The notes below the pieces were generated by a model. That model was not told the origin of the DNA. It did not search any database and saw only the letters and a list, made by a program, of their open reading frames with translations. Below, piece by piece: positions 1-48,494 of a stretch of DNA of 48,494 nt. Source of the stretch: a virus; the IMG/VR virus record IMGVR_UViG_3300017773_000016, positions 1 through 48,494 of that record, one strand, 5' to 3'. Position numbers and translations under genes: made by a program. Positions within the stretch are counted from its first letter, which is position 1, and the number at the start of each line of letters is the position of its first letter.

Positions 1-18
1 CACCACCAGTAATTCCCC
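1..18. repeat. 18-bp terminal direct repeat, copy 1 (assembly circularisation overlap)
   Basis: CACCACCAGTAATTCCCC is identical to bases 48477-48494. Merging them yields a 48,476-bp circle and an uninterrupted gene. Confidence 0.92.
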
Positions 19-259
19 TCGTGCCACCCCACGCGATGCCAGCAGCCGCAAGAGATATTGTTTTAAACTCACTGTTAATATATTGATACAGTGCTGAATT
101 TGTACTATCCCACCAAATATCTCCTTCACTCGGAGATGATGGTTCTGTACCACTTGCAGTATATCCTTGCTCAATGGCGTTTCCTCTAACCGTAAGCTTG
201 TTAGGAAAGTCAACCGCTGAACCTTTGTTACCAATTGTGTTTACTTTTAACGTACTCAT
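1..259 (-). CDS. Propeller-repeat tail protein, paralogue A, N-terminal part (gene spans the contig join)
   Basis: The ATG at 257-259 opens a frame that runs off the left end and continues in frame from the right end (to the stop at 47632) once the 18-base terminal overlap is merged. The joined gene is 1104 nt, 367 aa. This piece holds the N-terminal module: a MSTLKVNTIG start, a NKLTVRGNAIE segment, and the PSSPSEGDIWWD motif also found in the five downstream copies. A WGGTRGITGGG segment then begins the first repeat. A likely Shine-Dalgarno TAGGAG lies just upstream. The role is probably tail fibre or receptor binding, inferred from repeat architecture and position; no enzymatic motif is seen. 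Confidence 0.85.
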   Translation of the reverse strand, partial: MSTLKVNTIGNKGSAVDFPNKLTVRGNAIEQGYTASGTEPSSPSEGDIWWDSTNSALYQYINSEFKTISLAAAGIAWGGTRGITGG

Positions 260-268
260 TTTTCTCTC

Positions 269-1393
269 CTAAGAAGCATTGCCTGATGCTGCGTTACAAT
301 CAAAACTTTCACCAACTAGGTTGCCAAAATCGGTAGCATTACCAGTGCTTGCAATCGTAACATATTCAATTGTGTCAACGGTAGATCCCTCATAACCTCC
401 TGCGACAGTAGCCCTATCTGCATTACAACAAGCTGTTGGTCCTTGCCTCGCAGCCGTCAGATCACCAAAATCGGTAGCATTACCTGCGGTCGCTACTGTT
501 ATATAATCAATGATATTTGAATTAGCTCCGCTTGCTTGACCGCCAAAAAAAAGACCATAAGTAACATTTGCTGCTCCACAAAAATTATATCGCACCCCAG
601 TTAAATCACCAAAATCTGAACTATTAGATGAACTATCAAAAGTAATTTTTTCAATTGTGTTTACGTTAGAGCTAGCAGAAGTTGTCGTTGTACCACCTGC
701 TACAACAAAAGTAGTTCCATCTGATAAACCTGCACTATCACCTCTAGCAGTAGTGAAGTCATATCCAAAATCTGTGCAATTTGCGGCTGTTGCTATTGTA
801 AGTTTATCAATATGTGAAGGGGAAAAATAAAATCCACTATTAGCATATCGACTAAAATTTATTAATCCAAGAGTACCATTAGAACCTGCTGCTATAGTAA
901 TAATACCATAAGTCATGTCACCGAAATCAGCCGCGCTTCCAGTGGTTGCAAATGTAATGTAATTTAAATCTTTTGTAGAGTTATAAGATACTGAATAAAC
1001 CCCACGCGATTTATTGGAAATACCACCATTTTGATAACCCCTTTGAGCAATCAATAAATCACCGAAGTCAGCCGCGTTCCCTGTTGTTGGAATTGCATAA
1101 TAATCTAAACGGCTTGCCGCTAAACTAGCACTATAACCTCCATGATGTACTGCCCTATCACCTCCGTTAACCAATTGTGCTGCAAAAGAAACGGTTTTAA
1201 ATTCCGAATTTATATAATGTTTTAAAACGTCATTTCCTGTGTCGTACCAAAAATCACCATTAGATGGAGAGCTTGGTTCTGTGCCTGATGAAGTATAAGT
1301 TCTTTCAATTGCATTTCCGCGCACTGTCAATTTATTTGGAAAATCAACTGCACCGCCTTCATTATCAATCGTATTAACCTTAATTGTACTCAT
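269..1393 (-). CDS. Propeller-repeat tail protein, paralogue B
   Basis: 374-aa paralogue starting MSTIKVNTID. I chose this ATG over an upstream alternative because it aligns with paralogue A and overlaps the preceding stop as ATGA. The N-terminal 70 residues carry NKLTVRGNAIE and EPSSPSNGDFWYD. Six repeats of about 48 residues follow. Each has a GG-containing strand, a hydrophobic stretch like IDYITVAT, then a GNATDFGDLT-type turn. One copy is divergent (CTDFGYDF). The C-terminus ends ASGNAS, as in its relatives. Six kelch-like repeats suggest a six-bladed beta-propeller. The N-terminal module matches paralogue A best, so A and B look like a recent duplicate pair. Exact binding target unknown. 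Confidence 0.85.
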   Translation of the reverse strand: MSTIKVNTIDNEGGAVDFPNKLTVRGNAIERTYTSSGTEPSSPSNGDFWYDTGNDVLKHYINSEFKTVSFAAQLVNGGDRAVHHGGYSASLAASRLDYYAIPTTGNAADFGDLLIAQRGYQNGGISNKSRGVYSVSYNSTKDLNYITFATTGSAADFGDMTYGIITIAAGSNGTLGLINFSRYANSGFYFSPSHIDKLTIATAANCTDFGYDFTTARGDSAGLSDGTTFVVAGGTTTTSASSNVNTIEKITFDSSSNSSDFGDLTGVRYNFCGAANVTYGLFFGGQASGANSNIIDYITVATAGNATDFGDLTAARQGPTACCNADRATVAGGYEGSTVDTIEYVTIASTGNATDFGNLVGESFDCNAASGNAS

Positions 1394-2523
1394 GAAGCTG
1401 CTCCTGATGATGCACTTAGATGCCATACTGTCGCAAGTAAATCTCCAAAATCTGTTCCATTACCTGTTGTTTGGATAGTTACATACTCAATAGAGTTGGT
1501 TTTTGCATAACTTGCATTTTCTCCACCACCAAAAATAGCCCTAGTACCGTTGGATGTTCCTGTTGTCATTTGACGCGCTTCATTAAGATCACCGAAATCC
1601 GTAGCATTAGCAGTGGTTTGTGTAACGACATAATCAATCGTATTTACCGCAGCACCACTACTGTTATCTCCACCTGCAAACAAAGCATATGTTGTATCAC
1701 TAGCACTTCCCCTGCCCTTATTTGATGAGCTTGCATCTCCAAAATCTGTTGCATTACCAGTTGAAGCAATCGTTATGTAATCCATTACATTGCTTCTGCT
1801 CCCAGTATCACCTGTGGCAAATATTCCTCTTGTGGCATCATTAGCACCTGCAAGTAATGATCTTGCAACCGTAAGATCGCCAAAATCCGTAGCATTGCCA
1901 GTAGATGAAATTGTAACATAACTTATTACATTTGTAACACTTCCACTATTTCCACCTCCAAATACTCCATAAGTACCATCGGATACTGCCGCCAATCCCC
2001 AAGTACCAACACCTAAATCACCAAAATCTTGAGCGTTGCTAGTAGTTGAAACAGTTATATAATCAATTGATGCTAAAACAGCGAATGATGCATTATAACT
2101 ACCTGCAAATAAACCTCTAGAAGAATTAGAACAGCCAGAATTAAAATAAGCTCTTGCATCAGTTAGATCGCCAAAGTCAACTGCGTTACCTGTTGACGTT
2201 ATATCAACATATTGCATTACATTTTGAATTGCACTAGCTTCACCACCTGCAAATACACCTCTATCACCGCCCCAACCGAATGCAGGTGCAGCATTTACAT
2301 GAGTAAGCTGCTTAAATTCACCATTGATATAAGTGTAATATTTGTCGTTTGCAGTATCAAACCATACATCACCATTTGCAGGTGAACTTGGTTCAGTACC
2401 GCTTGCCGTGTATGCAAAACCTGCAAGACCGCTATCCGACCCACCGCTATTCAACCCATAGGTAAAATTAGGTGCTCCCGACCCTGCCCTGTTGGTTATC
2501 TTTTCAAATTCTGCATCACTCAT
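1390..2523 (-). CDS. Propeller-repeat tail protein, paralogue C
   Basis: 377-aa paralogue starting MSDAEFEKITNRAG. Its N-terminal module (GAPNFTYGLNSGGSDSGL, then EPSSPANGDVWFD) is nearly the same as in paralogue D and unlike A/B or E/F. Six repeats follow with DFGD motifs (NAVDFGDLTDAR, NAQDFGDLG, NATDFGDLTVAR, NATDFGDAS, NATDFGDLNEAR, NGTDFGDLL), and the chain closes with SASSGAAS. The stop overlaps the start of paralogue B by four bases, implying translational coupling. Predicted as a virion surface or receptor-binding propeller from architecture; no catalytic residues recognised. Confidence 0.85.
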   Translation of the reverse strand: MSDAEFEKITNRAGSGAPNFTYGLNSGGSDSGLAGFAYTASGTEPSSPANGDVWFDTANDKYYTYINGEFKQLTHVNAAPAFGWGGDRGVFAGGEASAIQNVMQYVDITSTGNAVDFGDLTDARAYFNSGCSNSSRGLFAGSYNASFAVLASIDYITVSTTSNAQDFGDLGVGTWGLAAVSDGTYGVFGGGNSGSVTNVISYVTISSTGNATDFGDLTVARSLLAGANDATRGIFATGDTGSRSNVMDYITIASTGNATDFGDASSSNKGRGSASDTTYALFAGGDNSSGAAVNTIDYVVTQTTANATDFGDLNEARQMTTGTSNGTRAIFGGGENASYAKTNSIEYVTIQTTGNGTDFGDLLATVWHLSASSGAAS

Positions 2524-2532
2524 TTTATTTTC

Positions 2533-3651
2533 CTAAGAAGCTGCTCCAGAACAACTCGCACCGCCATAAAATTGTGTAGCTAAATCTCCAAAATCTTGAG
2601 CGTTTCCTGTTGTTGCAATTGTAATGTATTCAATTGAATTATCATTATTACCACCTGCCCAGATTGCCCTAGTCCCATTAGAACACCCCATCGTGTAATC
2701 TCTGGCTGCCAAAAAATTACCAAAATCAGTGGCATTTCCAGTAGTTTGAGTAGTGATATATTCTAATGTGTCATTACTACCATTGCGGCAATAAACTGTA
2801 TATGTTGCATCACTTACTGCGGAAGGTCTGTTCATCGATGCTATTGAATCACCAAAATCAGTGGCATTACCAGTTGAAGCATATGTAACGTAATCAATTA
2901 TATTTGAGGAAAATGGAGAGGCATCAAGCCACCCACCAATATAAACACCTCTGGTTGCATCACCTGCTGCGCCTACATGATACCTTGCTTGTGTTAAGTC
3001 TCCAAAATCAGTTGCGTTTCCTGTTGAAGCTACTGTGATGTAATCTATTACATTATTTTGAGCACCACTTACTACCCCACCTGCAAACAACCCATACGTA
3101 CCATCACCATTGCCGCTTGCATATGTTCTAGCTGATGTTAGATCACCGAAATCTTGAGCATTTCCTAAAGTAGAAGTTGTAACGTATGCAATTCTGTTAT
3201 CTGCGCTTGGTGTTGCACCACCTCCCCATACCCCACGTGAACCATTACTTAAAGCAGCAGGGTAAGAAACAACGGATGTTAAATCACCAAAATCTGCTGC
3301 ATTACCTAATGTAGAAATAGCGCGATACTGAATTACATTACCTCTTGCGTGACCAGATTGAGGAAGGTGTCCACCGCCCCATAAAGCTCTTTCGCCACCC
3401 CAACCAAATGGAGGGATAGCATTGCTATGAGTTATCTGTTTAAACTCACCTGCCACATAATAATACAATTTATCGTTGGTGCTATCGTACCAGAGATCAC
3501 CGTTTGCAGGGGAAGAAGGTTGTGTTCCTGATGAAGTGTATGCCTTACCAATTAAACCGCTATCTGATCCGCCAGAATTTAGACCGTATGTAAAACTTGG
3601 TGCGCCTGTACCTGCACGATCTGTAATTTTTCTTGTTGTAAATTCTGACAT
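2533..3651 (-). CDS. Propeller-repeat tail protein, paralogue D
   Basis: 372-aa paralogue starting MSEFTTRKITDRAG, sharing its N-terminal GAPSFTYGLNSGGSDSGL module with paralogue C. The motif QPSSPANGDLWYD is followed by WGGERALWGGG and six repeats with NAADFGDLTS, NAQDFGDLTSAR, NATDFGDLTQAR, NATDFGDSIA, NATDFGNFLAAR and NAQDFGDLA. The first repeat has a short insertion rich in Gly and His (GGHLPQSGHARGN) and the fifth is shortened, so the variation sits in loops between conserved strands. The C-terminus is SCSGAAS. A GGAG ribosome-binding site precedes the ATG. Same inferred tail role as its neighbours. Confidence 0.85.
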   Translation of the reverse strand: MSEFTTRKITDRAGTGAPSFTYGLNSGGSDSGLIGKAYTSSGTQPSSPANGDLWYDSTNDKLYYYVAGEFKQITHSNAIPPFGWGGERALWGGGHLPQSGHARGNVIQYRAISTLGNAADFGDLTSVVSYPAALSNGSRGVWGGGATPSADNRIAYVTTSTLGNAQDFGDLTSARTYASGNGDGTYGLFAGGVVSGAQNNVIDYITVASTGNATDFGDLTQARYHVGAAGDATRGVYIGGWLDASPFSSNIIDYVTYASTGNATDFGDSIASMNRPSAVSDATYTVYCRNGSNDTLEYITTQTTGNATDFGNFLAARDYTMGCSNGTRAIWAGGNNDNSIEYITIATTGNAQDFGDLATQFYGGASCSGAAS

Positions 3652-3660
3652 AATTTTCTC

Positions 3661-4785
3661 CTATGCAGCAGAACCTGATGCAGCCGCAGACCCATATCTT
3701 GCCTGTGTAAGATCACCAAAATCCGTTGAATTACCTGTTGTTTGAATAGTGACTTGTTCAATCGTGTTAGTCGGACTACTGACTGATCCAGTTGAACCTA
3801 AAGCAACGACAGCTTTTGTTCCATTTGCACTTGCTGAATGATGCCGTGACGCTGAAGTTAAATCACCAAAATCAACCGCATTTCCTGATGTTGTTCCTGT
3901 TGTCCAATACTGTATGACATTTGTAAGCGCATCGGGATAACCCCCAAAATAAACAGCCCTTGTTGTATCAGAACACAAACCGCCTGTTTGGTTATTACCT
4001 AACAAGTCCCCAAAATCTGCTGCATTGCCAGTTGTTTGAATTGTTATGTAGGAAATATCATCACGACCACTAGCAGCACCAGAAGTACCCCCTGCCCGAA
4101 AGCCATACGTTGAGTCACTAGTTGCTCTACCACCGTTTATACTAGCTACATCATCTCCAAAGTCAGTAGCGTTTCCTGTTGTTTCAATGGTAACATAATC
4201 TATCGTATTGGTACTTTCACCTGCCCATCTAATACCTCTACTTCCGTCTGAACACGCACCACCATTATAAGTAGTCGTTGTTAGATCGCCAAAGAAAGTT
4301 GAATTACCTGTTGTGGCTGTAGTCACATAAAGTAAATCATTACTTGCTGAACCTTTAAAACCTTGCGTAACAATCGCTCTTGTTCCGTTTGAAGTTGCCG
4401 CAGGGTAGTATGCGTTATGTGCCATATCTCCGAAATCAGTTGCATTCCCTGCACTAGAAATAGAAACGTAATCTATTACATTTGTAGTGTTTGCACCACC
4501 TGATGAGTCACCTGCAAAAAACAAGCCTCTTTCGCCAAACCATGCAGCTGGTGCAATACCAATTGTTTCCTTCCACTCACCTGCAATGTAAAGAAATATC
4601 TTTTCGTTTGTTGTATCCCACCAGATTGAACCGTTTTCTGGAGAACTTGGTTCACTAGAACTTGCGGTGTATTCTCCTAAGTTAAGCGTAGAAAGTGCAG
4701 CACCATTCATTGTTACGCCATTAGAGAAGTTTGGCTTTCCTGTACCTGCCGCGTCTACTACTGTATCAACTTTTATTTCTGACAT
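3661..4785 (-). CDS. Propeller-repeat tail protein, paralogue E
   Basis: 374-aa paralogue starting MSEIKVDTVVDAAG. The N-terminal module (GKPNFSNGVTMNGA, STLNLGEYTASSSEPSSP, then WWDTTNEKIFLYIAGEWKE) matches paralogue F and differs from the A/B and C/D pairs. Six repeats follow; one has a substituted turn (NSTFFGDLTT), the others keep xDFGD. The chain ends AASGSAA. Spacing to its neighbours is nine bases on each side, with GGAG ribosome-binding sites placed directly after the stop codons. Function inferred as tail fibre or receptor-binding propeller. Confidence 0.85.
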   Translation of the reverse strand: MSEIKVDTVVDAAGTGKPNFSNGVTMNGAALSTLNLGEYTASSSEPSSPENGSIWWDTTNEKIFLYIAGEWKETIGIAPAAWFGERGLFFAGDSSGGANTTNVIDYVSISSAGNATDFGDMAHNAYYPAATSNGTRAIVTQGFKGSASNDLLYVTTATTGNSTFFGDLTTTTYNGGACSDGSRGIRWAGESTNTIDYVTIETTGNATDFGDDVASINGGRATSDSTYGFRAGGTSGAASGRDDISYITIQTTGNAADFGDLLGNNQTGGLCSDTTRAVYFGGYPDALTNVIQYWTTGTTSGNAVDFGDLTSASRHHSASANGTKAVVALGSTGSVSSPTNTIEQVTIQTTGNSTDFGDLTQARYGSAAASGSAA

Positions 4786-4794
4786 TTCTTTCTC

Positions 4795-5922
4795 CTAAGA
4801 AGCGTTTCCTGATGTAGCTGCACCCTGTCTAGACGCGGTAGTTAAGTCACCATGATCAGTTGCATTTCCTAAGGTTTGTATGACCACACTTTGTATTGTA
4901 TCTTGTGGACTTGCCGAACCATTACCACCAATAAAACAAAGATTAGTTCCATTTGATGCTGCACTGTATTTTTCAATATTTGATAACATATCCCCAAAAT
5001 CCACTGAATTACTTAGTGTTTGCGTTGTGATATATTCAATTACATTTTGAGTGCCATTAGGATGTGCATTACCACCGCCAAATACAATTCTTGTAGCATC
5101 ACTTCCACCTGCTAAATATGATCGTGGTGTAGTCATATCACCGAAATCGGTAGCATTCCCTGTCGTACCTGTCGTAATATAATCCATTGTGGAATCAGGA
5201 TTATTACTTGTTGATCTTCCGCTTGCAATTACACCTCGCGTTGCATCATTACCACTAGCAAGGTGCGCTCTTTCAACTGTCATATCGCCAAAATCTTGTG
5301 AGTTTGCAGGGGTCTGTACTGTAACATATTGAATAACATTTGTTCTTGCAGATGCCGCCCAACCCCCTGCTACAAAAGCATATGTTCCATCACCAAATCC
5401 TGTTGCTGTCCATACTGGTTCTACTAAATCGCCAAAATCCGTAGCATTGCCAGTAGTAGAAGTGGTAATATAATCTATTTCATTTCTTGGAGAATTGATA
5501 CCACCGAAACGCAAGGCTCTTGAACTGTCTGATGCTGCGGAACAATATCCATTTATAGTTGTAGTGTCTCCAAAATCACTCGCATTCCCAGATGAACTTA
5601 TATCAAAATAATCTATATTATTTATATTACTAGAAGAATTATAACCTAAATAAGCAATTCCCCTACTGCCACCCCAAGAAATACCTGCCGCAACTCCAAT
5701 AGTCTCCTTCCACTCACCTTCTGCATAGATAAAGGTTTTCTCATTCGCAGTATCCCACCACAAAGCACCATTATCAGGATTGCTAGGTTCTGAGGAACTG
5801 GCGGTATATTGATTTAGGTTAAGCGTAGACGTAGCTGCACCGTTTACAGTAACCCCATTTTGGAAATTGGGCTTACCAGTACCTGCTAAATTTACAACTG
5901 TATCTACTTTTAATTCACTCAT
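4795..5922 (-). CDS. Propeller-repeat tail protein, paralogue F (first of the array to be translated)
   Basis: 375-aa paralogue starting MSELKVDTVVNLAG, paired with E by its N-terminal module (GKPNFQNGVTVNGA, then WWDTANEKTFIYAEGEWKE). Six repeats: NASDFGDT, NATDFGDLV, NSQDFGDMTVER, NATDFGDMTTPR, NSVDFGDML and NATDHGDLTT. The last has His in place of Phe. The C-terminus is ATSGNAS. Its start overlaps the stop of the 890-aa propeller protein as TAATG, so translation of the whole fibre region is probably coupled. No chaperone or peptidase domain is visible in it. Confidence 0.85.
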   Translation of the reverse strand: MSELKVDTVVNLAGTGKPNFQNGVTVNGAATSTLNLNQYTASSSEPSNPDNGALWWDTANEKTFIYAEGEWKETIGVAAGISWGGSRGIAYLGYNSSSNINNIDYFDISSSGNASDFGDTTTINGYCSAASDSSRALRFGGINSPRNEIDYITTSTTGNATDFGDLVEPVWTATGFGDGTYAFVAGGWAASARTNVIQYVTVQTPANSQDFGDMTVERAHLASGNDATRGVIASGRSTSNNPDSTMDYITTGTTGNATDFGDMTTPRSYLAGGSDATRIVFGGGNAHPNGTQNVIEYITTQTLSNSVDFGDMLSNIEKYSAASNGTNLCFIGGNGSASPQDTIQSVVIQTLGNATDHGDLTTASRQGAATSGNAS

Positions 5923-8594
5923 TAGACTACAACGTATCTCGCTCCTGATGAAATCGTAAGTGTGACTCCATTTGCTACTGTTAATGGTCCTACTGACATT
6001 GCATTATCTGTTGCTGCAACCGTTGTATTAGAACTTAATGTTTGAGAATGAGAGCTTACAACATTCAACCCACCACCATCCGCTGTCCATGCGTAATCAC
6101 TACCATTCCAACTAAGAATTTGCCCAGAAGAAGCACTACTTACATTAAGGTGTGCATCGACTTGAGAAGTTCCAAAAGTTGCAGGATTTGTATCTGGATT
6201 TATCAATAATTCTGTAGCTGAAACAGCCGTACCTGCTAATACTTCAATTGTATCAGGAGATAATCCAAGCGTTCCATTTGACTGCACATAATAACTTTGA
6301 CCTGCGGTTAATCCGCTTTGTGCATCATCCGTAGACCCTGCGGTTTGTATTGTCGCTGTTGCACCGCTAGCATAAGCACCGTCTGAAATACCTACAAAGT
6401 TTTCTGATGTTAAAATTGATGATTGGCTTTGAGGGCTATAAACCACTCCTGTTCCATAACTTGAATTACCAATATCACGATAAGCTATTAAATTCTTACC
6501 ACTTGCAACATCGTGAACAATGGCGTTGTAATAAGCCTGTGCACTTTCAAAAACCGTTGCTGTATCAAAGCTTATTGATGTTCCAGAAACTGTACCTGCA
6601 ATGACTGTTCCATAGTCTGAATTACCTGCGTCTGAGTATGTAATTAATACTTTACCTGCAACTGGATCATATACAGACATACCGCTTTCTATAACAGCAT
6701 CTTCAAATTCAACAGCCGATCCAAATGAAACAGTTGTACCCGATACAGTTCCTACTTTGGCATATCCATGAGTATTATTTCCTACGTCTGAATATGCAAC
6801 TACTACTTTATTGTTAGCCGTGTCATATGCTAACGCATTAATACCAGTGTTTGCTGAATTATAAACAACAGGCGTTCCAAAGCTTATAGATGTTGAGCTA
6901 ACTGTGCCAACCGCTATTGTACCATAATATCCATTTCCACCATCACGATAAGAAACTAAAACTCTGCCAACATCAGGATCATAAACTGTATCTTGAACCT
7001 GCGTGTTTGCGCTTTCAAATGTTGCCTCTGAACCAAAGGTGATTGACGATCCCGAAACCGTGCCTACAACAGCATTTCCTGAGCTAGTTCCTGTAGCATA
7101 AGTTATTACAACTTTCCCATTTGCACTATCAAAAGATGCTTTAACTCCTGTGCCTAATGTTGCACTTTTGAATACTGTCTCTGAGCCAAAGCTTACACTT
7201 GTACCCGAAACTGTGCCGACAATTGCTGTACCATAACTGCTATTTCCTGTATCTTTATAGACAATTACGACTTTATTAGCTGCCGTGTCATAAGCAATGC
7301 CTACTGAGCCTGTTGCACCACTATTAAAAGTAACAGGAGACCCGAATGAAACAGATGATCCACTTACCGTTCCAACAACTGCTTTACCAGTATTATCTCC
7401 TGCATCTGAATACGCTACAATAACTTTTGCACTGTCAGGATCATAAACAGCATCTAAATCAAAAGTCATACCACTTTCAAAAACTACGGCTGTACCGACT
7501 GCCGCTGCATTAGTTTTATAAACATTGCTCACCGTACCATCAGCATTGACAGCAACTAATGTTCCGTCAGATAATGCACCATCTGCCGTAGCTGTAAGGC
7601 TTCCCCCACCACCCCCTGTTGATTGTGCAACAAAGCTAAGATTTCCAGAACCATCAGTTTTAAGGACTTGATCTGCACTTCCGTCTGCCGTTGGGAAAGA
7701 TAGCCCATCAAGAATTATTTTACCTGATCCGTTAGGCGTTATAGCAATATTGCCGTTACTTGCTGAGACAATAGACTGTCCGTTTACATCAAGCGAACCT
7801 CCTAACTGCGGAGTAGTATCAGCCGCTACACTTGCAATGCCGCCTGATGATTGATCTACGAAACTCAGATTTCCGCTACCATCTGTTTTTAAAACTTGGT
7901 TAGCTGATCCATCTGCTGTTGGGTGTGAAAGCCCATCAATAACAACCTTTCCTGATCCATTTGGCGTAATTGCAATGTTACCATTTGATGCAGAAATTAT
8001 TGATTGTCCATTTACATCAAGCGAGCCTCCCAATTGAGGAGAAGTATCTTCAACAATATTATCAATTCCGCTAGTGTCACTGTCTGCAACCCAAGCATAA
8101 TCTGAGCCATTCCAACCTAATAGCTGACCGCTAGATGCACCGCTTGTGTTCAAATGAGTATCTACATCACTGTTTCCATACGTTGACCCTTGTGGTGCGG
8201 TTTCTGCACCTGCGCCCATGCCGCTATGAGAGGAACAATAGTAGTAAAGTAAATCAGGAGCGTCTTGCTGTAATTGAACTTCAACATATGCTCCAGAACT
8301 ACCTGCTGTTCCTGATGTTGTAATACCAGTTGTATATGCAGAGCCACCGCCATGAGTACCATCTGATGTTGTTGAGAATACTAATGGATGTCCACTTACC
8401 GAACTATCTGAAACGTCAAAGCGATATTTTACACCTTTCGGTATAAACATTGTTTGCTGTGAAGTGCCATCAATTACATATTTTCCACCTGATACTGTGA
8501 CTGTAACCGATATACCCTGCACACTTGAGTCTTGTAATGTCCCATCTGTTTGAACATCTTTTGCAAAAGTCGCTAAATTTCTGTTTATACTCAT
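5922..8594 (-). CDS. Tail fibre protein with cupredoxin-like domain and seven-repeat propeller
   Basis: 890 aa. The ATG giving MSINRNLATF is preferred over a TTG six bases upstream because AGGA lies eight bases before it. Residues about 20-135 look cupredoxin-like: FIPKGVKYRFDVSDSSVSGH near the start and YYYCSSHSGMGA at the end, giving the Cys-His-Met pattern of type I copper sites. Next come two near-identical segments (QSIISASNGNIAITPNGSGK type). Then seven repeats of about 50 residues occur (VYDPDSAKVIVAYSDAGD ... VVGTVSGSSVSFGS), suggesting a seven-bladed propeller. The C-terminus ends ISSGARYVVV. Similar domain mixtures are known in marine phage fibres. Copper binding is not established. 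Confidence 0.8.
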   Translation of the reverse strand: MSINRNLATFAKDVQTDGTLQDSSVQGISVTVTVSGGKYVIDGTSQQTMFIPKGVKYRFDVSDSSVSGHPLVFSTTSDGTHGGGSAYTTGITTSGTAGSSGAYVEVQLQQDAPDLLYYYCSSHSGMGAGAETAPQGSTYGNSDVDTHLNTSGASSGQLLGWNGSDYAWVADSDTSGIDNIVEDTSPQLGGSLDVNGQSIISASNGNIAITPNGSGKVVIDGLSHPTADGSANQVLKTDGSGNLSFVDQSSGGIASVAADTTPQLGGSLDVNGQSIVSASNGNIAITPNGSGKIILDGLSFPTADGSADQVLKTDGSGNLSFVAQSTGGGGGSLTATADGALSDGTLVAVNADGTVSNVYKTNAAAVGTAVVFESGMTFDLDAVYDPDSAKVIVAYSDAGDNTGKAVVGTVSGSSVSFGSPVTFNSGATGSVGIAYDTAANKVVIVYKDTGNSSYGTAIVGTVSGTSVSFGSETVFKSATLGTGVKASFDSANGKVVITYATGTSSGNAVVGTVSGSSITFGSEATFESANTQVQDTVYDPDVGRVLVSYRDGGNGYYGTIAVGTVSSTSISFGTPVVYNSANTGINALAYDTANNKVVVAYSDVGNNTHGYAKVGTVSGTTVSFGSAVEFEDAVIESGMSVYDPVAGKVLITYSDAGNSDYGTVIAGTVSGTSISFDTATVFESAQAYYNAIVHDVASGKNLIAYRDIGNSSYGTGVVYSPQSQSSILTSENFVGISDGAYASGATATIQTAGSTDDAQSGLTAGQSYYVQSNGTLGLSPDTIEVLAGTAVSATELLINPDTNPATFGTSQVDAHLNVSSASSGQILSWNGSDYAWTADGGGLNVVSSHSQTLSSNTTVAATDNAMSVGPLTVANGVTLTISSGARYVVV

Positions 8595-8603
8595 GACCAA
8601 ATC

Positions 8604-10300: not shown

Positions 10301-13300
10301 CTATGCCTTAAATGCAATTGCCGCGCCAAAAATATCCGCATAAATAGCACGGCTATTACTTAAACTTCTATATTGAAATGTAATTGAAGCATTACTTGAT
10401 GAACCTGATACTACCATCAATGCTGTTGATGCAACTGCATTTGTCGCCAAACTGTTTTCTGGAACAGAGAATATTGGAGTTCCGCTTGGGTAAGTTCCAG
10501 TAGTAAAACTACTAAATGAAGTGCTAAAATTTACACTTGACGCATATAAAGCAAGTCTTTCACTATTAGCTGAAGAACTAGGAGTATTGTTATTTTTCTT
10601 AGCACCTACTGGTAATAAGATAACAGAACCAGAATCTACTGCGCCTAAAGAAAGCGTAAAACTATTCATCGATGAGCCTATTGGGTTATATATTGTATGC
10701 GAAGCATTATAAAAGGCGTTTGAAGTAATACCTGCAAGCTTATCAGCCGTAATAGTACCTGCATTTATGTTTGCACCATTAATCGTACCTGCATAAACAT
10801 AACTTGCAACAATACTATCTGCTTCAATAGAGGCTTGCACAAAACCACTACCATTATGATGAAAATATTTGCCAGTAGAAGTATTAAACCACAAATCACC
10901 AGACGATCCGCTAGGCTGCGAACTTTGATAATAGACTGTAGACTTACTATTTAGCTGTGATGTTGTAGCATAACCTGATAATGCAGAACTACCTATAAAC
11001 CCTGCATCATTATTCAAATCACTGGTGTTTAACGTAGGAATTTGACCGACTGATAAAGTATCTCTTATTGAAGCTGCACTGAATTCTGCCGTACCATTCT
11101 CTTGAATTCTCCAACCTGCACCGCTTGATCCTGTTACAAAATTAGAACTTTCAATCGTATCAGTAATTTGGAAAGCACCATTAGTTTCACCATAAGTAAT
11201 ACTTGTTACTGTTCCGCTTACATTAGCCTCAACTGTATAAGGAACAGTCCATTCTTTTTCTGAAAAACTTGTATTGCTTACTGTTGTTTGGCTATGAGAC
11301 CATCCTGTTGGTGGTGTGCTAAATGCTTTATTAGATACACTAAATGTACCAGTATTATTTGTTGGCGCTGTAGGTGCAGAGGCTTGTAAGGTTGTATAAT
11401 ACAATATTCCAGAATACACGCTTGTATCTGTATCTGCACCGCCTGTTGAAGCATCAGTGGTTGCATTTGCAGTAATGGCGGTGCTTGCATTTCCTGAGAA
11501 ATCAACTGCCTCAACCCAATAATAATATTGAGTATTTACTGCTAATGCTGTGTCTGTAAATTTATCTGCTAAAGCAAAAGCAATTGGATTTGCAGGTTTA
11601 GAATTAGATGTAGCACGATAAATATTATATCCTTTTAGATCATATAAAGCACCGCCCCCAACTTGCGTAGTTGGCGCAGTCCAATCTAAGGTTACAAGCT
11701 TTGCACCACCTGTTGCTGTCAGTGATGTTGCAGGTGATGGGGCTGTCGTATCTCCCCCAACTGTATGTGTTGTTGCAACAAATGAACCAGTATTTCCTCT
11801 TACTGATACCGCCCGAACCCTTACGTTATATTGCGCTCCACTTTCTAAAGGACCGATATTTGCAGCCGTATCTGTTGATGGAATTTCGGTTCTAAAATAA
11901 TTACTATCGCTAGTTTTTTTCCATTCTATTTCATAATGACTGATCATTTCACTTGCAGCCGCAGTCCATGAAACTCTCGCTTGCGTTACAAATGAACCAT
12001 CATTTTGAATATTACCAATATCTGTAACGGTAACATTTGACGGACTTAAACCTGCGCGAATATCTGTTAAAGTACTATCATTTGCTTTTAATTCTGCTTC
12101 CTCTGCCGACCATGAAAATGCTGCCGATGATGTTTCTCGTAAAGTCAAAGCGACTTTTAATTCACCACCAGAACTATCATTTCTTAATTTCCATCCAATA
12201 ACTTCAAAATCTTTAGCACTCCATCCATATCTTGCATTTGTAATGCCTATGATGTCACCGACCTGTATTTCTAATGCTGATAAACTAAAATCAGCCGTAA
12301 CAGTCATTTGTTCTCTTGATCTAAATAAGGTTAATTTTGCTAATCTTTGCGCCATAGAACTTGATGTGGTGAGAGGCAATCCAAAATCTAACGCATTTTC
12401 TACCCCTGCATCATCTGATATAAATGTTGCGCTTTTTATTTCGGGATAATCTGATCTTATATAATCTGCGTTACTATCATTAAACATTCCGCGAACTATA
12501 TTGAAATTATCTCGCCTAGAATGTTTTGTAGAAATTGTTATATCGCTTCTAAAATCAGAAAGCGTTAATGTCTTGACAGGTGTGGAATATGCACCAACTA
12601 CAAGCTGCCATTCGCCTTGCCCCCAATAAAGAGTACCTGCACAAGCAGCAACCATATCACCTAAAATATCTTTTGGTTGTCTATCTAGAGAAAGAACACC
12701 ATTTATTTCATATCTTTTTTCGTTCCCACTACCGCTAAGAGAAACATTTTCATCACAAGTATTTGCAGCAGTAGAGAATACGGTGTCGTTGATAGCTGTG
12801 GCATTATTTAATCCATATTTTGATATTAGATAATCTCTTATACACAATGCTGCATTTGCAGAAAAAGACGTAGAAGAATTTCTAGGATCAAAAACCTTTT
12901 TACCTTGTACTAAAGCGGTGAATAATGGAACGCCTTGATGAAATACATCTTGGTTATATTTAAGTCTTACATAGATACAAGCGATGCCTTGACCACGGAA
13001 ATTTGTATCATCGCCAGTTGAGCCATTTGCCCAACTAGGACCATTAGAAAGTGCGTTTAGTGTTGTATAAATATTTTGATTAGCTGCACCAGTAAATTTT
13101 TTAATTAAGATTGTTGAATTATTATCATTATCTTTCCATGTTGATGTTGTTACATTACCATCTGTATCAAGCGTAACAACTTCATCATTTATGTAAATAT
13201 TACCAATTGAATTTACTTCATGACCTGCCAAACAAATAATTTGATGCAAATATTCATTAGTACTTCCATTTGACTCAAGATATGTTATTATGCCGCCTTT

Positions 13301-13585
13301 GCGAATTGTACCATATACAAGTTCCTGAGGTGCAGTAGCATTTCTTGTATTAGTCATAAGACCGCTACTTGATCCAAAAGCATCCATATCAAACTTTGGC
13401 ATTAAGGATTTAGCTATCCAAGCAACAGCCGCGATGGTTGCAATACCTACAAAGAAAGCAACTGTTGTGCTTGCCATAATTCCAAGTTGTCCCAATATAG
13501 CAAAACCAACTTGTGTAGGAGATCGCGGAACTCTATCCCAATCATTCCAATATTTTACAGTAAAATCACCTAATTGATATTTCAT
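10301..13585 (-). CDS. Tail tip attachment protein, lambda gpJ-like host specificity protein
   Basis: 1094 aa, large central tip protein. A hydrophobic stretch near residues 30-60 (GIMASTTVAFFVGIATIAAV) is followed by the conserved J-type body, including QELVYGTIRKGGIITYLE and YKLGDF-like strands. Two fibronectin type III-like domains lie around residues 505-715 (VSWTAAASEMISHYEIEWKK; LDWTAPTT ... GYNIYRAT). The C-terminal third contains a PSGSSGDLWFNTSTGKYFHH segment related to the N-terminal module of the propeller paralogues. The upstream NlpC-like gene overlaps its start as ATGA. It probably forms the central spike and holds the receptor-recognition end of the tail. Confidence 0.85.
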   Translation of the reverse strand: MKYQLGDFTVKYWNDWDRVPRSPTQVGFAILGQLGIMASTTVAFFVGIATIAAVAWIAKSLMPKFDMDAFGSSSGLMTNTRNATAPQELVYGTIRKGGIITYLESNGSTNEYLHQIICLAGHEVNSIGNIYINDEVVTLDTDGNVTTSTWKDNDNNSTILIKKFTGAANQNIYTTLNALSNGPSWANGSTGDDTNFRGQGIACIYVRLKYNQDVFHQGVPLFTALVQGKKVFDPRNSSTSFSANAALCIRDYLISKYGLNNATAINDTVFSTAANTCDENVSLSGSGNEKRYEINGVLSLDRQPKDILGDMVAACAGTLYWGQGEWQLVVGAYSTPVKTLTLSDFRSDITISTKHSRRDNFNIVRGMFNDSNADYIRSDYPEIKSATFISDDAGVENALDFGLPLTTSSSMAQRLAKLTLFRSREQMTVTADFSLSALEIQVGDIIGITNARYGWSAKDFEVIGWKLRNDSSGGELKVALTLRETSSAAFSWSAEEAELKANDSTLTDIRAGLSPSNVTVTDIGNIQNDGSFVTQARVSWTAAASEMISHYEIEWKKTSDSNYFRTEIPSTDTAANIGPLESGAQYNVRVRAVSVRGNTGSFVATTHTVGGDTTAPSPATSLTATGGAKLVTLDWTAPTTQVGGGALYDLKGYNIYRATSNSKPANPIAFALADKFTDTALAVNTQYYYWVEAVDFSGNASTAITANATTDASTGGADTDTSVYSGILYYTTLQASAPTAPTNNTGTFSVSNKAFSTPPTGWSHSQTTVSNTSFSEKEWTVPYTVEANVSGTVTSITYGETNGAFQITDTIESSNFVTGSSGAGWRIQENGTAEFSAASIRDTLSVGQIPTLNTSDLNNDAGFIGSSALSGYATTSQLNSKSTVYYQSSQPSGSSGDLWFNTSTGKYFHHNGSGFVQASIEADSIVASYVYAGTINGANINAGTITADKLAGITSNAFYNASHTIYNPIGSSMNSFTLSLGAVDSGSVILLPVGAKKNNNTPSSSANSERLALYASSVNFSTSFSSFTTGTYPSGTPIFSVPENSLATNAVASTALMVVSGSSSNASITFQYRSLSNSRAIYADIFGAAIAFKA

Positions 13586-33193: not shown

Positions 33194-33820
33194 ATGAATG
33201 AAGTAAAAAATACAGACGCAATCACAGCATTTGTTGAAGCCCAAGCAAATATGGGAAAAGCAATTAAAAATCAAAAAAATGCCTTTTTAAATAACACGGA
33301 CGCAGATTTATCTGCAATACAAGATGCCATTATACCTGCATTTGCATCAAAAGGATTAGCAATTATTCAAGAATGTGGTGCTGACGAACATGGAAAATTT
33401 GTCAAGACAAGTGCAGTACATACATCTGGTTACTTGTTTACAAGTACTGTTTATCTGGAATACAAAAAATCTGATATGCAGTCACTTGGTGGTGCAATTA
33501 CATATGCAAGACGATATGGTTTGGCATCATTGACAGGAGTACCAGTACAAGATGATGATGGTAATAAGGCTGTCGGTGAAGATAGAATGCAAATTAAAAA
33601 AGATTTAAAAGAAAAATCAATTACACCAAAACAAGCAAGTGTCTTAGAACGTGCAATCAAATTAGAAAGAATGTTACCAACAATGGATGCAGATGCACTT
33701 TTAAAATTTGGTAAAGAAGCACAAAATATTATCGACAATATAAAAACATTTAATGAAGAAAGATCAGCAGAATTAGAAGTACAGTGGCAAAGTAGAGAAG
33801 CAGAACTGGAGATTAATTAA
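33194..33820 (+). CDS. ERF-family single-strand annealing protein
   Basis: 208 aa. Residues about 10-125 are ERF-like: FVEAQANMGKAIKNQKNAFL, AIQDAIIPAFASKGLAIIQE, and the conserved LGGAITYARRYGLASLTGVP with a following DDDG turn. It anneals single strands during phage recombination and may help concatemer formation. The C-terminus is a helical tail. It sits between Gp157 and SSB, the common arrangement of ERF operons. Confidence 0.9.
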   Translation: MNEVKNTDAITAFVEAQANMGKAIKNQKNAFLNNTDADLSAIQDAIIPAFASKGLAIIQECGADEHGKFVKTSAVHTSGYLFTSTVYLEYKKSDMQSLGGAITYARRYGLASLTGVPVQDDDGNKAVGEDRMQIKKDLKEKSITPKQASVLERAIKLERMLPTMDADALLKFGKEAQNIIDNIKTFNEERSAELEVQWQSREAELEIN

Positions 33821-44999: not shown

Positions 45000-46487
45000 C
45001 TATCCACCGATAACATTAGTACCTGCTTGATCAAGCGATACTGAATTAACACTTGCATCCAACGCAACTTTATTTGGACCTGCTGTACCTGCAACTAGAC
45101 TTGGTGATAAACCTATATCATAAATTAATGTTGGCAATGTAGGTGTTCCACTCACAACATTATTTGCATTTAATACAATATTTATAGTTGCAATAGGAGT
45201 GCCGATACTTGGACTTCCGCTTGCAACTGATGAAACAAGCAATTGTCCTTCTGGTAATGCAGGGAAAATATTTGTTGGTAATGCAGGTGTTCCAGAAACC
45301 ACACTGACAGGAACAAGTGTTTCTGCCTCTGACATTGTTGCTGAACCTGCAACTGGACTTCCTGATACAGTGTTTGTTAGTGTAATTGAATGTACTTGAG
45401 TTATTGATGAAGAACCAACGATTGGCGTTCCTGATCCAACGCTATCAAGAACAAAAGTTTCATCCTCTGCCATATTGACGCTTGAAACAATCGGTGAACC
45501 TGTAGCAATTGATGTGGCAGTTAAAGAAACATTTTGATCAATGGCAGTCGTGGCAACACTTGGATTACCAGTTGCAATAGAATTAGCTGTTAATGGAACA
45601 ACAATTGTAAGTGTAAGAGACCCAACAACTGGATTTGATGCGGCAACACTTGTAGCTGTTAAGCTGTGTTCTTGAGTAATTGAAGCGGCAGCAACGCTTG
45701 AACTAGAAGCTTCTACAGAATTTGCATTAATTGATTGCGCGGAAGTAATACTTGGGCTTCCAACTTGCGGCTCACCTGCATCTAAATCTGCCGTTGTAAG
45801 AGTTTCAAACTCAGCCATATTAGCGTTATTTGCTACTGGTGTTCCCGATAAGACATTTGAAGCTGCTATTACATGACTTCCAACAATGCTTACGGAACCT
45901 ACGTCAAATGATCCAGAAGTTACACTAGATGCCGTAAGTGTTTCATCTTCTGTCATAGCAACAGATGCAGCAACAGGATTTCCTGATGCAACAGAAGTTG
46001 CAATAAATGTTGTTGAAAGTGTTAATGATAATGTTGAAACAGACGGCACACCTGACGTAATTGACGGTGTTGTGAATGTTTCATCCTCACCCATATTGAT
46101 TGTAGGAGCACTGAGAGAGCCAGTAACAACACTTTGAGGTGTGAGATCATGTATTTGCGTTATCGCAGTAGACGCGGCTTGTGGTGGAGCACACGCAACA
46201 TTTGAACAAAGTAGAGCGTGTTCTGAAACAATTGATGTAGAAGCAACAACAGATGCGCCAGTAAGAAGTGAACTTGCCGTAATAACTGAAATAACACTTG
46301 CTGTGCTTGATTGCACAACGGGCGTTCCAGAAACAACTGAAGTTGCTGTTAATGAATGGACTTGCGTAAGAACAATTGAACCAATTGAAGGTGTGCCAGA
46401 AACAATGCTCGTTACTGTTACTGTTACTTCATTGACAACACCATCATCTGCAATCGGTGCTGATGCAACTGGTGCAAATCCAAACAT
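45000..46487 (-). CDS. Tandem 23-residue repeat protein, tail or surface fibre
   Basis: 495 aa. After a 25-residue lead (MFGFAPVASAPIADD start), eighteen tandem units of about 23 residues follow (one unit of 25). The pattern is like TSVASGNPVVGS then xxxTQVHSLTA or xMAEDETLTA; the two endings recur through the array. The constant length with divergent sequence suggests a solenoid or fibre with one turn per unit. A non-repetitive C-terminus ends SLDQAGTNVIGG. Related V-x-SG-x-P repeats occur in other alphaproteobacterial phage proteins. Function not known; structural role inferred. Confidence 0.75.
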   Translation of the reverse strand: MFGFAPVASAPIADDGVVNEVTVTVTSIVSGTPSIGSIVLTQVHSLTATSVVSGTPVVQSSTASVISVITASSLLTGASVVASTSIVSEHALLCSNVACAPPQAASTAITQIHDLTPQSVVTGSLSAPTINMGEDETFTTPSITSGVPSVSTLSLTLSTTFIATSVASGNPVAASVAMTEDETLTASSVTSGSFDVGSVSIVGSHVIAASNVLSGTPVANNANMAEFETLTTADLDAGEPQVGSPSITSAQSINANSVEASSSSVAAASITQEHSLTATSVAASNPVVGSLTLTIVVPLTANSIATGNPSVATTAIDQNVSLTATSIATGSPIVSSVNMAEDETFVLDSVGSGTPIVGSSSITQVHSITLTNTVSGSPVAGSATMSEAETLVPVSVVSGTPALPTNIFPALPEGQLLVSSVASGSPSIGTPIATINIVLNANNVVSGTPTLPTLIYDIGLSPSLVAGTAGPNKVALDASVNSVSLDQAGTNVIGG

Positions 46488-46491
46488 TTAA

Positions 46492-46800
46492 TTATGACCT
46501 AGCTGCAACCCAATCAGAAACCATTGTTTTGACTTCTGCATTTGTCATGTCTGACATTTCACCATCATCACCTGATTTTTGAAAAGCATTTGCAGAATGT
46601 AAGGCAAGAACCTTTGTTTCTAATTCTGTGGCTGTCAATTCAGTTACAGTATCAGGAATATAATATTCTCTATCAGCTTCATCAGGTGACCAACCTACCA
46701 TTGTATTTTCAGAAGCATCTGAAAAATAACCACCATCTTCTACCCACTCAGGAGTACGCATACCCCCTGCGGTCATGTGCATTTTATATTCTATAATCAT
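46492..46800 (-). CDS. Hypothetical protein in the fibre/tail region
   Basis: 102 aa, starting MIIEYKMHMTAGGMRTPEWV. Acidic with aromatic residues (EWVEDGGYFSDASENTMVGW); the C-terminal part LTATELETKVLALHSANAFQ is helical. Its start overlaps the upstream stop by four bases (ATGA). No family recognised. Confidence 0.65.
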   Translation of the reverse strand: MIIEYKMHMTAGGMRTPEWVEDGGYFSDASENTMVGWSPDEADREYYIPDTVTELTATELETKVLALHSANAFQKSGDDGEMSDMTNAEVKTMVSDWVAARS

Positions 46801-47615
46801 TTTTTTGACTCCTTAGACTTTTCCAGTTGTAACATATAATCTGTATTAAGAAAATCTGCCTTACCAAAAATTCTTTCTGCGGTAATATCTGCATTTTTAT
46901 AATACTTATCTGCCATTTGATCTAAGAAGCTTTCTAGATCATTACTATGCAAATTCTCAAGCTTTGCTATCCGGTCAGCCGTTACTTTGATATATCCAGA
47001 AACTTCGGTCAAAGCTAACTGCGGATGGACGCCATATTGTTGCATATATTCAATGGTTGCTGTAGAAGCTCTACCACCGTCCATTAAATTACGATACATT
47101 AATTCAAACCCTCTGCGTACATGATGTCGCTTTTCTTCTCTTTCAAAAGCAACTTCATCCCATTCATCTATTCCGTAGTTCTCTTTGATGTTATCATAAC
47201 TATCAATTAATGTAGCAATATCTTTAATTGAGCCATTAATTTTATTTTCCATTTGAATAAGATTATGACGCTTCTGTCTTAGCTTTGCTTCACTTACTGC
47301 ATCGTTTGAACCTTCTAGCTCTATAATCTCCATACGAACTTCTGCATGAGAAACTTGTGCTTCATTCAAGGCGTTTTCTCGCTTCTCTACTTCCGCAGTA
47401 ATCTGACGTAACATTCTATATGGTGAGTGACCATTAAGCATTGTTAATGTCATCATATTCAATGTTGTTTGCGAATTGTTTCTATCAAATGCCCTCGTTG
47501 CTTTTGCAATTTCTGGCAATTTTTCAGCTACCTTTGCAGCCGCAACTTGATTGATATTTTTGCTTGCCTCTACTGGCAAAGAAAAAGTTATGGGTTTTGT
47601 AATTACGTTTGTCAA
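46797..47615 (-). CDS. Coiled-coil hypothetical protein downstream of the propeller array
   Basis: 272 aa. Long helical regions (LRQITAEVEKRENALNEAQV, EIIELEGSNDAVSEAKLRQK, KLENLHSNDLESFLDQMADK) predict coiled coils over much of the protein. N-terminus MTNVITKPITFSLPVEASKN. It could be a chaperone or assembly factor of the fibre array, or a virion protein; sequence does not decide. Confidence 0.65.
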   Translation of the reverse strand: MTNVITKPITFSLPVEASKNINQVAAAKVAEKLPEIAKATRAFDRNNSQTTLNMMTLTMLNGHSPYRMLRQITAEVEKRENALNEAQVSHAEVRMEIIELEGSNDAVSEAKLRQKRHNLIQMENKINGSIKDIATLIDSYDNIKENYGIDEWDEVAFEREEKRHHVRRGFELMYRNLMDGGRASTATIEYMQQYGVHPQLALTEVSGYIKVTADRIAKLENLHSNDLESFLDQMADKYYKNADITAERIFGKADFLNTDYMLQLEKSKESKK

Positions 47616-47631: not shown

Positions 47632-48494
47632 TTAAGTACCCGAACACGCTGCCGAAGTACCATATGCTGCCGTATTATCCCCAAAATCTGTAGCGTTTGC
47701 TGTTGTTTGGACAGTAATATAATCCATTGTGTTCACATATGATGAGCCAGTACCGCTTGTAAAAACTCCATAAGTAGAATTTGACATACCACTTGTTTTT
47801 CTGGCTACTGTCAAATCGCCAAAATCCGTTGAATTGCCAGTAGTTTGGGTTGTGAAATAATCCATACCAGAAGAAACGCCAGCGTTCATCTGACCCCCAC
47901 CAACAACACCTCTTGTAGCATCTGAAACACTTCCCATCTCATATCTACCTGTATCAAGATCGCCAAAATCCGTAGCATTACCTTCGGTTGCGTAAGTAAT
48001 ATATTCTGTTGTAACATCGGCACTTGAACCATAGCCACCTGCAATAACACCTCTAGTATCATCAGCAAAGGATGTTGTTCCGTACACATTATTGCTAAGA
48101 ACTCCAAAACTGGTTGCATTACCTGTTGTTGCAGGAACAACTTTTTGAATAGCACTTATAGCACTGGTAATGTAACCACCTGCAAATATTCCAATTGTTC
48201 CATTGCAACTTGCGCCATCAGCAAATCTAGTTTGATATTGTAAGTCACCGAAATCAGTTGCGTTTCCAAGTGTGCCTATAGTTATATAATCTATTACATT
48301 TGAACGACCACCTGAGGTATCAACAGCGCCACCACCAAACAAACCTCTTGTGCCATTACTCAAAGCACCAAGAGTTTCTCTACCAACTGAAAGGTCTCCA
48401 AAATCTACTGCATTGCTTGGCGTTGCAATAGTTACATAATTTATAACGTTAGTGGATGTCTGACCAGACAATAATCCACCACCAGTAATTCCCC
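47632..48494 (-). CDS. Propeller-repeat tail protein, paralogue A, C-terminal part
   Basis: Continuation of the frame that starts at 259 after the contig join. It has the remaining repeats: NAVDFGDLSVGR, NATDFGDLQ, NATSFGVLSNN (turn divergent), NATDFGDLDTGR, NSTDFGDLTVAR and NATDFGDNTAA, six in all, ending AACSGT. The right edge of the window interrupts the first repeat at GGG; the last 18 bases duplicate the first 18, and the frame is kept across the join. Same inferred tail role as the other five. Confidence 0.85.
   Translation of the reverse strand, partial: GITGGGLLSGQTSTNVINYVTIATPSNAVDFGDLSVGRETLGALSNGTRGLFGGGAVDTSGGRSNVIDYITIGTLGNATDFGDLQYQTRFADGASCNGTIGIFAGGYITSAISAIQKVVPATTGNATSFGVLSNNVYGTTSFADDTRGVIAGGYGSSADVTTEYITYATEGNATDFGDLDTGRYEMGSVSDATRGVVGGGQMNAGVSSGMDYFTTQTTGNSTDFGDLTVARKTSGMSNSTYGVFTSGTGSSYVNTMDYITVQTTANATDFGDNTAAYGTSAACSGT
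48477..48494. repeat. 18-bp terminal direct repeat, copy 2
   Basis: Identical to bases 1-18. Most likely the overlap left by assembling a circularly permuted or terminally redundant genome, not a biological terminal repeat of only 18 bp. Confidence 0.92.

Follow-up and report, generated by a model that had tools for sequence, protein, structure and literature searches.

A tandem array of predicted Kelch propeller heads on slot-fixed adaptors in the tail region of an uncultured phage

Several described systems resemble parts of the locus reported here, a tandem array of six paralogous genes in IMG/VR virus record IMGVR_UViG_3300017773_000016 (a single virus record, analyzed over its whole length of 48,494 nucleotides [nt] and called the window below). 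In the Ackermannviridae tailspike complex (TSP1-4; CBA120 and S117), neighboring receptor-binding proteins (RBPs) combine conserved N-terminal assembly domains with variable, exchangeable C-terminal recognition domains (PMC11414711, PMC8825819, and PMC7506556). Gp45, the RBP of the Staphylococcus aureus siphophage phi11, is a homotrimer with a five-bladed propeller and a coiled-coil stem and tower (PMC4901313). The jumbo phage proteins CBB_550, CBB_552, and CBB_554 are Kelch-type six-bladed propellers, and CBB_552 was found in the virion (PMC5259590). A CBB Kelch-like protein was among the predicted-structure matches, with a sequence identity of 14%. The sole isolate phage with a detectable sequence relative was Synechococcus phage S-SKS1 (29% identity), which has several propeller open reading frames (ORFs) near its record ends.

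The window array shares slot-specific, conserved N termini and variable, exchangeable C-terminal domains with the Ackermannviridae system. However, it has short KVxTI-type adaptors and Kelch propeller heads in place of tailspikes with XD/TD domains, and it is further set apart by a siphovirus-type tail module, a tendency toward three genes, and a dedicated partner protein of 272 amino acids (aa). Pfam and PHROGs scans revealed no XD/TD (T4 gp10-like) families, although short modules may escape detection. With heads predicted to be Kelch propellers and no XD/TD families in these scans, we do not assign the array to the Ackermannviridae type; it would work like that system but is no member of it. 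Like phi11 Gp45, the array is of siphophage type and has a β-propeller domain, but it differs in its six Kelch-type blades, short adaptor, and six paralogs. The passages of PMC5259590 on the CBB proteins mention no paired adaptors, array rule, or partner. S-SKS1 differs in being a large cyanophage (208 kb), and no partner was found in the stretches of it that were examined. A literature search, which did not cover preprints and most subscription journals, yielded no description of the present system.

We interpret the array as a modular device for receptor binding on a siphovirus tail, built from slot-fixed adaptors and exchangeable Kelch heads, and assign this interpretation a probability of roughly two in three. 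If it is correct, probable host-recognition modules of uncultured phages are traded between fixed slots at visible, repeatable breakpoints, and rules of host-range evolution become testable from sequence alone.

Six adaptor-plus-head genes in the window

The original prediction had counted six consecutive genes for proteins of 367 to 377 aa, one of them crossing the contig join. These paralogs, F6 to F1, were recovered, all on the minus strand and spanning the join. They are numbered as slots 1 to 6 in order of transcription, and alpha, beta, and gamma denote the types of their N-terminal modules (N-modules).

4795-5922, minus strand: F6, slot 1; alpha adaptor and predicted six-bladed propeller head, 375 aa; first gene transcribed in the array
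3661-4785, minus strand: F5, slot 2; alpha adaptor and predicted propeller head, 374 aa
2533-3651, minus strand: F4, slot 3; beta adaptor and predicted propeller head, 372 aa
1390-2523, minus strand: F3, slot 4; beta adaptor and predicted propeller head, 377 aa; the gene that was modeled
269-1393, minus strand: F2, slot 5; gamma adaptor and predicted propeller head, 374 aa
1-259, minus strand: F1, slot 6, 5′ part; gamma adaptor, linker, and start of the head
47632-48494, minus strand: F1, slot 6, 3′ part; rest of the head, beyond the join

F1 runs from 259 to 1 and then from 48494 to 47632, giving 367 continuous aa once an 18-bp overlap is removed (window bases 1 to 18 are identical to bases 48477 to 48494). 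Because of these identical end bases, and because the sixth array gene is uninterrupted at the same place in relatives, we consider the join to be sound. The record acts as if circular or circularly permuted, and a single gene runs over the join. The 385-aa ORF called for F2 is probably over-extended, with the true start at 1393, which overlaps the F3 stop.

Each of the six proteins contains six repeats of 44 to 50 aa with the predicted DFGD-type core, which is degenerate in places (SFGV in F1, DHGD in F6, and FFGD in F5). The N-modules formed the three pairs that had been proposed, with identities of 73 to 81% inside pairs compared to 25 to 38% across pairs. Whole-protein identity was 53% for F3/F4, 49% for F5/F6, 43% for F1/F2, and about 36 to 46% for the remaining pairs. 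For the heads, identities of 43, 51, and 37% inside the N-module pairs stood against 36 to 45% across them, with F3/F4 alone slightly higher; in the window, the pairing does not reach into the heads. Recent whole-head gene conversion inside the window array was considered and rejected, since all window heads are at most 51% identical.

Sequence searches of Pfam and of solved structures with the window proteins found nothing usable; the Pfam scan returned no hit, Kelch_1 included, and Kelch_1 was matched by only 1 of 116 relatives (E value, 2.4e-4). We modeled F3 with AlphaFold on a deep alignment of 116 relatives and obtained a predicted local distance difference test (pLDDT) score of 92.8. 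In the model, residues 87 to 377 fold into a closed ring of six blades, each with four antiparallel strands, in agreement with the six-bladed fold originally deduced from the repeats. The nearest solved structures were the Kelch propellers Keap1, KLHL17, and the designed SAKe6 (Z score of about 38 to 40 over about 280 residues; root mean square deviation of about 2 Å), at sequence identities of 11 to 16%. On the strength of this model, the heads are predicted to be six-bladed Kelch-type β-propellers. The N-module (residues 1 to 37) was modeled at low confidence and is followed by a linker of about 45 residues with short strands; the adaptor comprises fewer than 90 aa, and neither a stem nor a C-terminal tower was predicted.

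Sequence variation was distributed unevenly along the six blades. The AB loops (mean entropy, 2.90) and the CD stretches (3.28) varied strongly; the conserved parts were the DFGD strand (1.07), the BC loops (1.28), and the D/DA stretch (1.99). In the Kelch topology of the model, AB and CD share a face opposite the one formed by BC and DA, and it is from this latter, conserved side that the chain runs into blade 1. From this geometry, we infer that the conserved face points toward the adaptor and the variable face outward.

Exchange of heads between slots and phages

Near relatives were gathered by a portal-based scan and a whole-record search. Six copies were present in G001 (91% portal identity) and G004 (81%), and the more distant G009 (68%) carried three. 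Outside the array, the majority of genes in this region show 70 to 97% identity among the window phage (W), G001, and G004. Their N-modules are 84 to 100% identical slot by slot, in the same order, and their heads have a mean identity of about 43%, whether the slots match or not. Nevertheless, individual heads in different slots can be nearly the same: the slot 3 head of G001 (A3) is 95% identical to the slot 4 head of G004 (B4), and the head of G001 slot 4 (A4, beta) is 90% identical to that of G004 slot 5 (B5, gamma). In the wider set, the beta head of L223 and the alpha head of L231 share 87% identity, and the gamma head of F1 (W6) is 80% identical to a beta head of L202, with N-modules that are just 31% identical. 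The head of F5, itself on an alpha adaptor, shares 90% identity with the alpha head found in L255.

Phylogenies gave the same picture. For the 24 genes of four six-slot phages, the N-module tree required 5 slot-label changes, the minimum for six labels, whereas the head tree required 15, compared to a mean of 16.3 after shuffling (P = 0.27). With alpha, beta, and gamma labels on 121 genes, the N-module tree needed 2 changes and the head tree 44, against 57.5 in shuffled data (minimum of 45 in 500 shuffles). Therefore, some residual association between head and adaptor type exists, which is far from linkage. By these sequence comparisons, heads are uncoupled from the N-modules and have been exchanged among slots.

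In nucleotide profiles of four swapped head pairs, identity rose from background to high levels at about nt 210 to 270 of the genes. In all four, the switch point coincides with the boundary between linker and head. The linker has the consensus YTASxxEPSSPxNGxxWWDTxN. A second repeated unit, TCAGGxxxGCTTCTTAGGAG, lies at gene boundaries, where the codons of the SGxAS C terminus, the stop codon, and the ribosome-binding site overlap. These elements, which may serve as natural recombination anchors, and a further recombination-related gene are located as follows.

5738-5809, minus strand: conserved linker, slot 1; head switch points of relatives lie just downstream
4601-4672, minus strand: conserved linker, slot 2
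3470-3541, minus strand: conserved linker, slot 3
2342-2413, minus strand: conserved linker, slot 4
1227-1298, minus strand: conserved linker, slot 5
93-164, minus strand: conserved linker, slot 6
4783-4814, minus strand: gene-boundary motif
3649-3680, minus strand: gene-boundary motif
2521-2552, minus strand: gene-boundary motif
257-288, minus strand: gene-boundary motif
33194-33820, plus strand: ERF-family single-strand annealing protein

The ERF protein is a possible agent of the cassette exchange; the window phage also encodes a single-stranded DNA-binding protein. With regard to a diversity-generating retroelement, no reverse transcriptase was found among the subset of window ORFs that was scanned, and no template-repeat search was made.

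Three-gene arrays and the partner gene

Copy number, which had been singled out for comparison among related phages, is three in most close relatives and six in G001 and G004. L202, L205, L206, L212, L213, and L255 each have a single gene of every type (alpha, beta, and gamma), and the six-gene clade of the window has a 2:2:2 composition in the order alpha-alpha-beta-beta-gamma-gamma. At 95% identity, several of these three-gene phages have partners that fall into the same clusters as the partners of six-gene phages. Since close relatives have one gene per type and the order is not alpha-beta-gamma-alpha-beta-gamma, the data point to an origin of six genes from three by separate tandem duplication of each slot. 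The stepwise pair duplication of the original prediction thus holds for the adaptors, but not for the heads, which are uncoupled from them and exchanged between slots. Block duplication of the entire triad in the window was rejected on account of the gene order. In the alpha N-module tree, slot 2 joins the single alpha of the three-gene arrays (support, 99/97), and slot 1 therefore looks like the added copy; the beta and gamma trees gave no resolved grouping for the added copy.

A second group of phages has three propeller genes with three unrelated N termini, designated X (MPLRPPAGFIS), Y (MPSYSGVWTL), and Z (GVWTLDQ). The Z gene of such triads often has about 11 repeats (L031:9695-11611, L036, L059, and L076), which suggests two propellers per chain. 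Among complete different arrays, 72 of 128 have three genes, with strict alpha-beta-gamma order in 20 and strict X-Y-Z order in 38, and three genes were also the most common number when partners were clustered at 95% identity (36 of 74 clusters). Four arrays were scored as alpha-alpha-gamma or alpha-gamma-gamma; in L016 the middle gene is beta-like by eye. Given the exceptions in the alpha/beta/gamma group (see below), the three-gene rule is a strong tendency. Nine tandem propeller genes with other, cyanophage-like N termini occur in L072 (3299-13233), with a nearby partner homolog upstream only.

The partner gene and the other neighbors of the array are as follows.

46797-47615, minus strand: conserved partner gene of 272 aa, immediately following the array; phrog_1409 (unknown function) is a weak match
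46492-46800, minus strand: 102-aa gene, after the partner
5922-8600, minus strand: tail-fiber-like gene, directly upstream of the array; match to phrog_677
10301-13585, minus strand: central tail fiber J-like protein

Of 70 usable loci retrieved with a propeller query, 61 had a partner homolog no more than 3.5 kb downstream of the propeller genes. Conversely, when the partner was the query, a head gene was directly upstream in 64 of 73 usable loci. Partner identity is 97% between the window phage and G001 and falls to 22%, still recognizable, in the X-Y-Z group. No relatives of the partner were found among 50,697 phage records, and neither the partner nor the triads were found among isolate phages. 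Because it is downstream, present in a single copy, and conserved beside variable heads, as fiber chaperones are, a chaperone-like role is suggested by analogy; the heads probably require the partner in order to fold or to be mounted, which gives phrog_1409-like proteins a concrete functional hypothesis.

In order of transcription, the genes upstream of the array encode terminase, portal, capsid, tape measure, distal tail protein, the J-like central fiber, and two fiber-like proteins, which is a siphovirus-type tail module followed by fibers. The array follows the distal tail protein, a tail protein, and J, and its location among tail genes is thus supported. In the adjacent 892-aa fiber (5922-8600), VGTVSGTSISFG-type repeats occur about six times and may form a second, different type of repeat head; only a 368-aa version is present in G001 and G004.

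Receptor binding and competing explanations

From the genes we infer a virion location, host binding, a hetero-oligomer, the partner's role, and ERF involvement. The alpha, beta, or gamma adaptor would position each chain in the assembly, and recombination between phages at the linker and at the gene-end/ribosome-site motif would carry heads across slots and phages, so that several different heads would be displayed per virion. The basic unit would combine single alpha, beta, and gamma chains, plausibly as a hetero-oligomer, with every slot doubled in the window phage and the heads folded or mounted by the 272-aa partner. The three-gene tendency in two unrelated adaptor sets predicts such a specific hetero-oligomeric architecture. 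Tentatively, this can be extended to a widespread RBP apparatus of uncultured phages, with three obligate chain types, recombining Kelch heads, and a dedicated partner mount, which was doubled to six in the window.

Several observations weigh against a modular receptor-binding device. Kelch domains have many roles, and the fold alone is no proof of receptor binding, which, like the glycan binding originally suggested, is predicted here from gene content. Single-gene loci account for 28 of the 128 complete arrays and 26 of the 74 partner clusters, in counts that come partly from partner-based scans, are biased, and include near relatives. Alpha/beta/gamma arrays of 1:2:1, 1:2:2, and 2:3:2 exist, and the partner matches no family with a known function.

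A stricter form of the device holds that an obligate alpha-beta-gamma heterotrimer forms one tail fiber tip, with six-gene arrays yielding two trimers. One gene per type in most three-gene arrays, the 2:2:2 composition of the window clade, and the recurrence of the three-gene rule with the unrelated X-Y-Z N-modules are consistent with it; the 1:2:1, 1:2:2, and 2:3:2 arrays are not. The propeller-bearing phi11 Gp45 is a trimer as well, but a homotrimer (PMC4901313). The odds are somewhat against this arrangement; should the three chains assemble into a single heterotrimeric tip, we know of no earlier phage receptor-binding tip that is naturally heterotrimeric.

Alternatively, the protein of each slot could be homo-oligomeric, and the adaptors could join the slots to each other or to distinct baseplate sites in an Ackermannviridae-like branched rack. 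Slot-specific N termini joined to C-terminal parts that can be exchanged characterize that complex (PMC11414711), and the variable stoichiometry of some arrays would fit. However, a rack leaves the preference for three in two unrelated adaptor sets unexplained, and the scans detected no XD/TD-like domains. As for the heterotrimer, the odds are somewhat against it.

Unlikely, by comparison, are decoration or accessory proteins on the head or tail surface that weakly bind organic matter or cells and are not RBPs. The linker weakly matches a PHROG "minor head protein" family, and the Kelch protein CBB_552, which has no known role, is in a jumbo phage virion (PMC5259590). Nonetheless, the array stands after J among fiber genes, and in G005 (L193, G005:20001-40000; 85% portal identity), where the array, the partner, and the 102-aa gene are all absent, two different fiber genes take its place; a hypervariable face opposite a conserved one also suits receptor binding better. 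Misassembly is a hazard with tandem repeats, and the data are metagenomic throughout, but chimeric contigs are a very improbable source of the head swaps, as the G001 arrangement recurs in the independent assembly L207, the L223 array is also present in L224 and L225, which come from other metagenomes, swapped heads differ by 5 to 20%, and breakpoints fall at one domain boundary in separate lineages.

A propeller scan of the viral collection gave at least 526 matches. Relatives of the capsid and portal proteins are scattered over many hosts, and genome-contig matches were pieces of metagenome-assembled genomes or single cells of very different taxa. Propeller relatives occur on contigs labeled Porticoccaceae, Epulopiscium, and Thermoprotei (L282, L284, and L287); such contigs are probably phage pieces. 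Window positions 45000-46487 encode a 495-aa protein of short TATSVVSGTPxVxS-type repeats, which ranges from 493 to 1034 aa among relatives.

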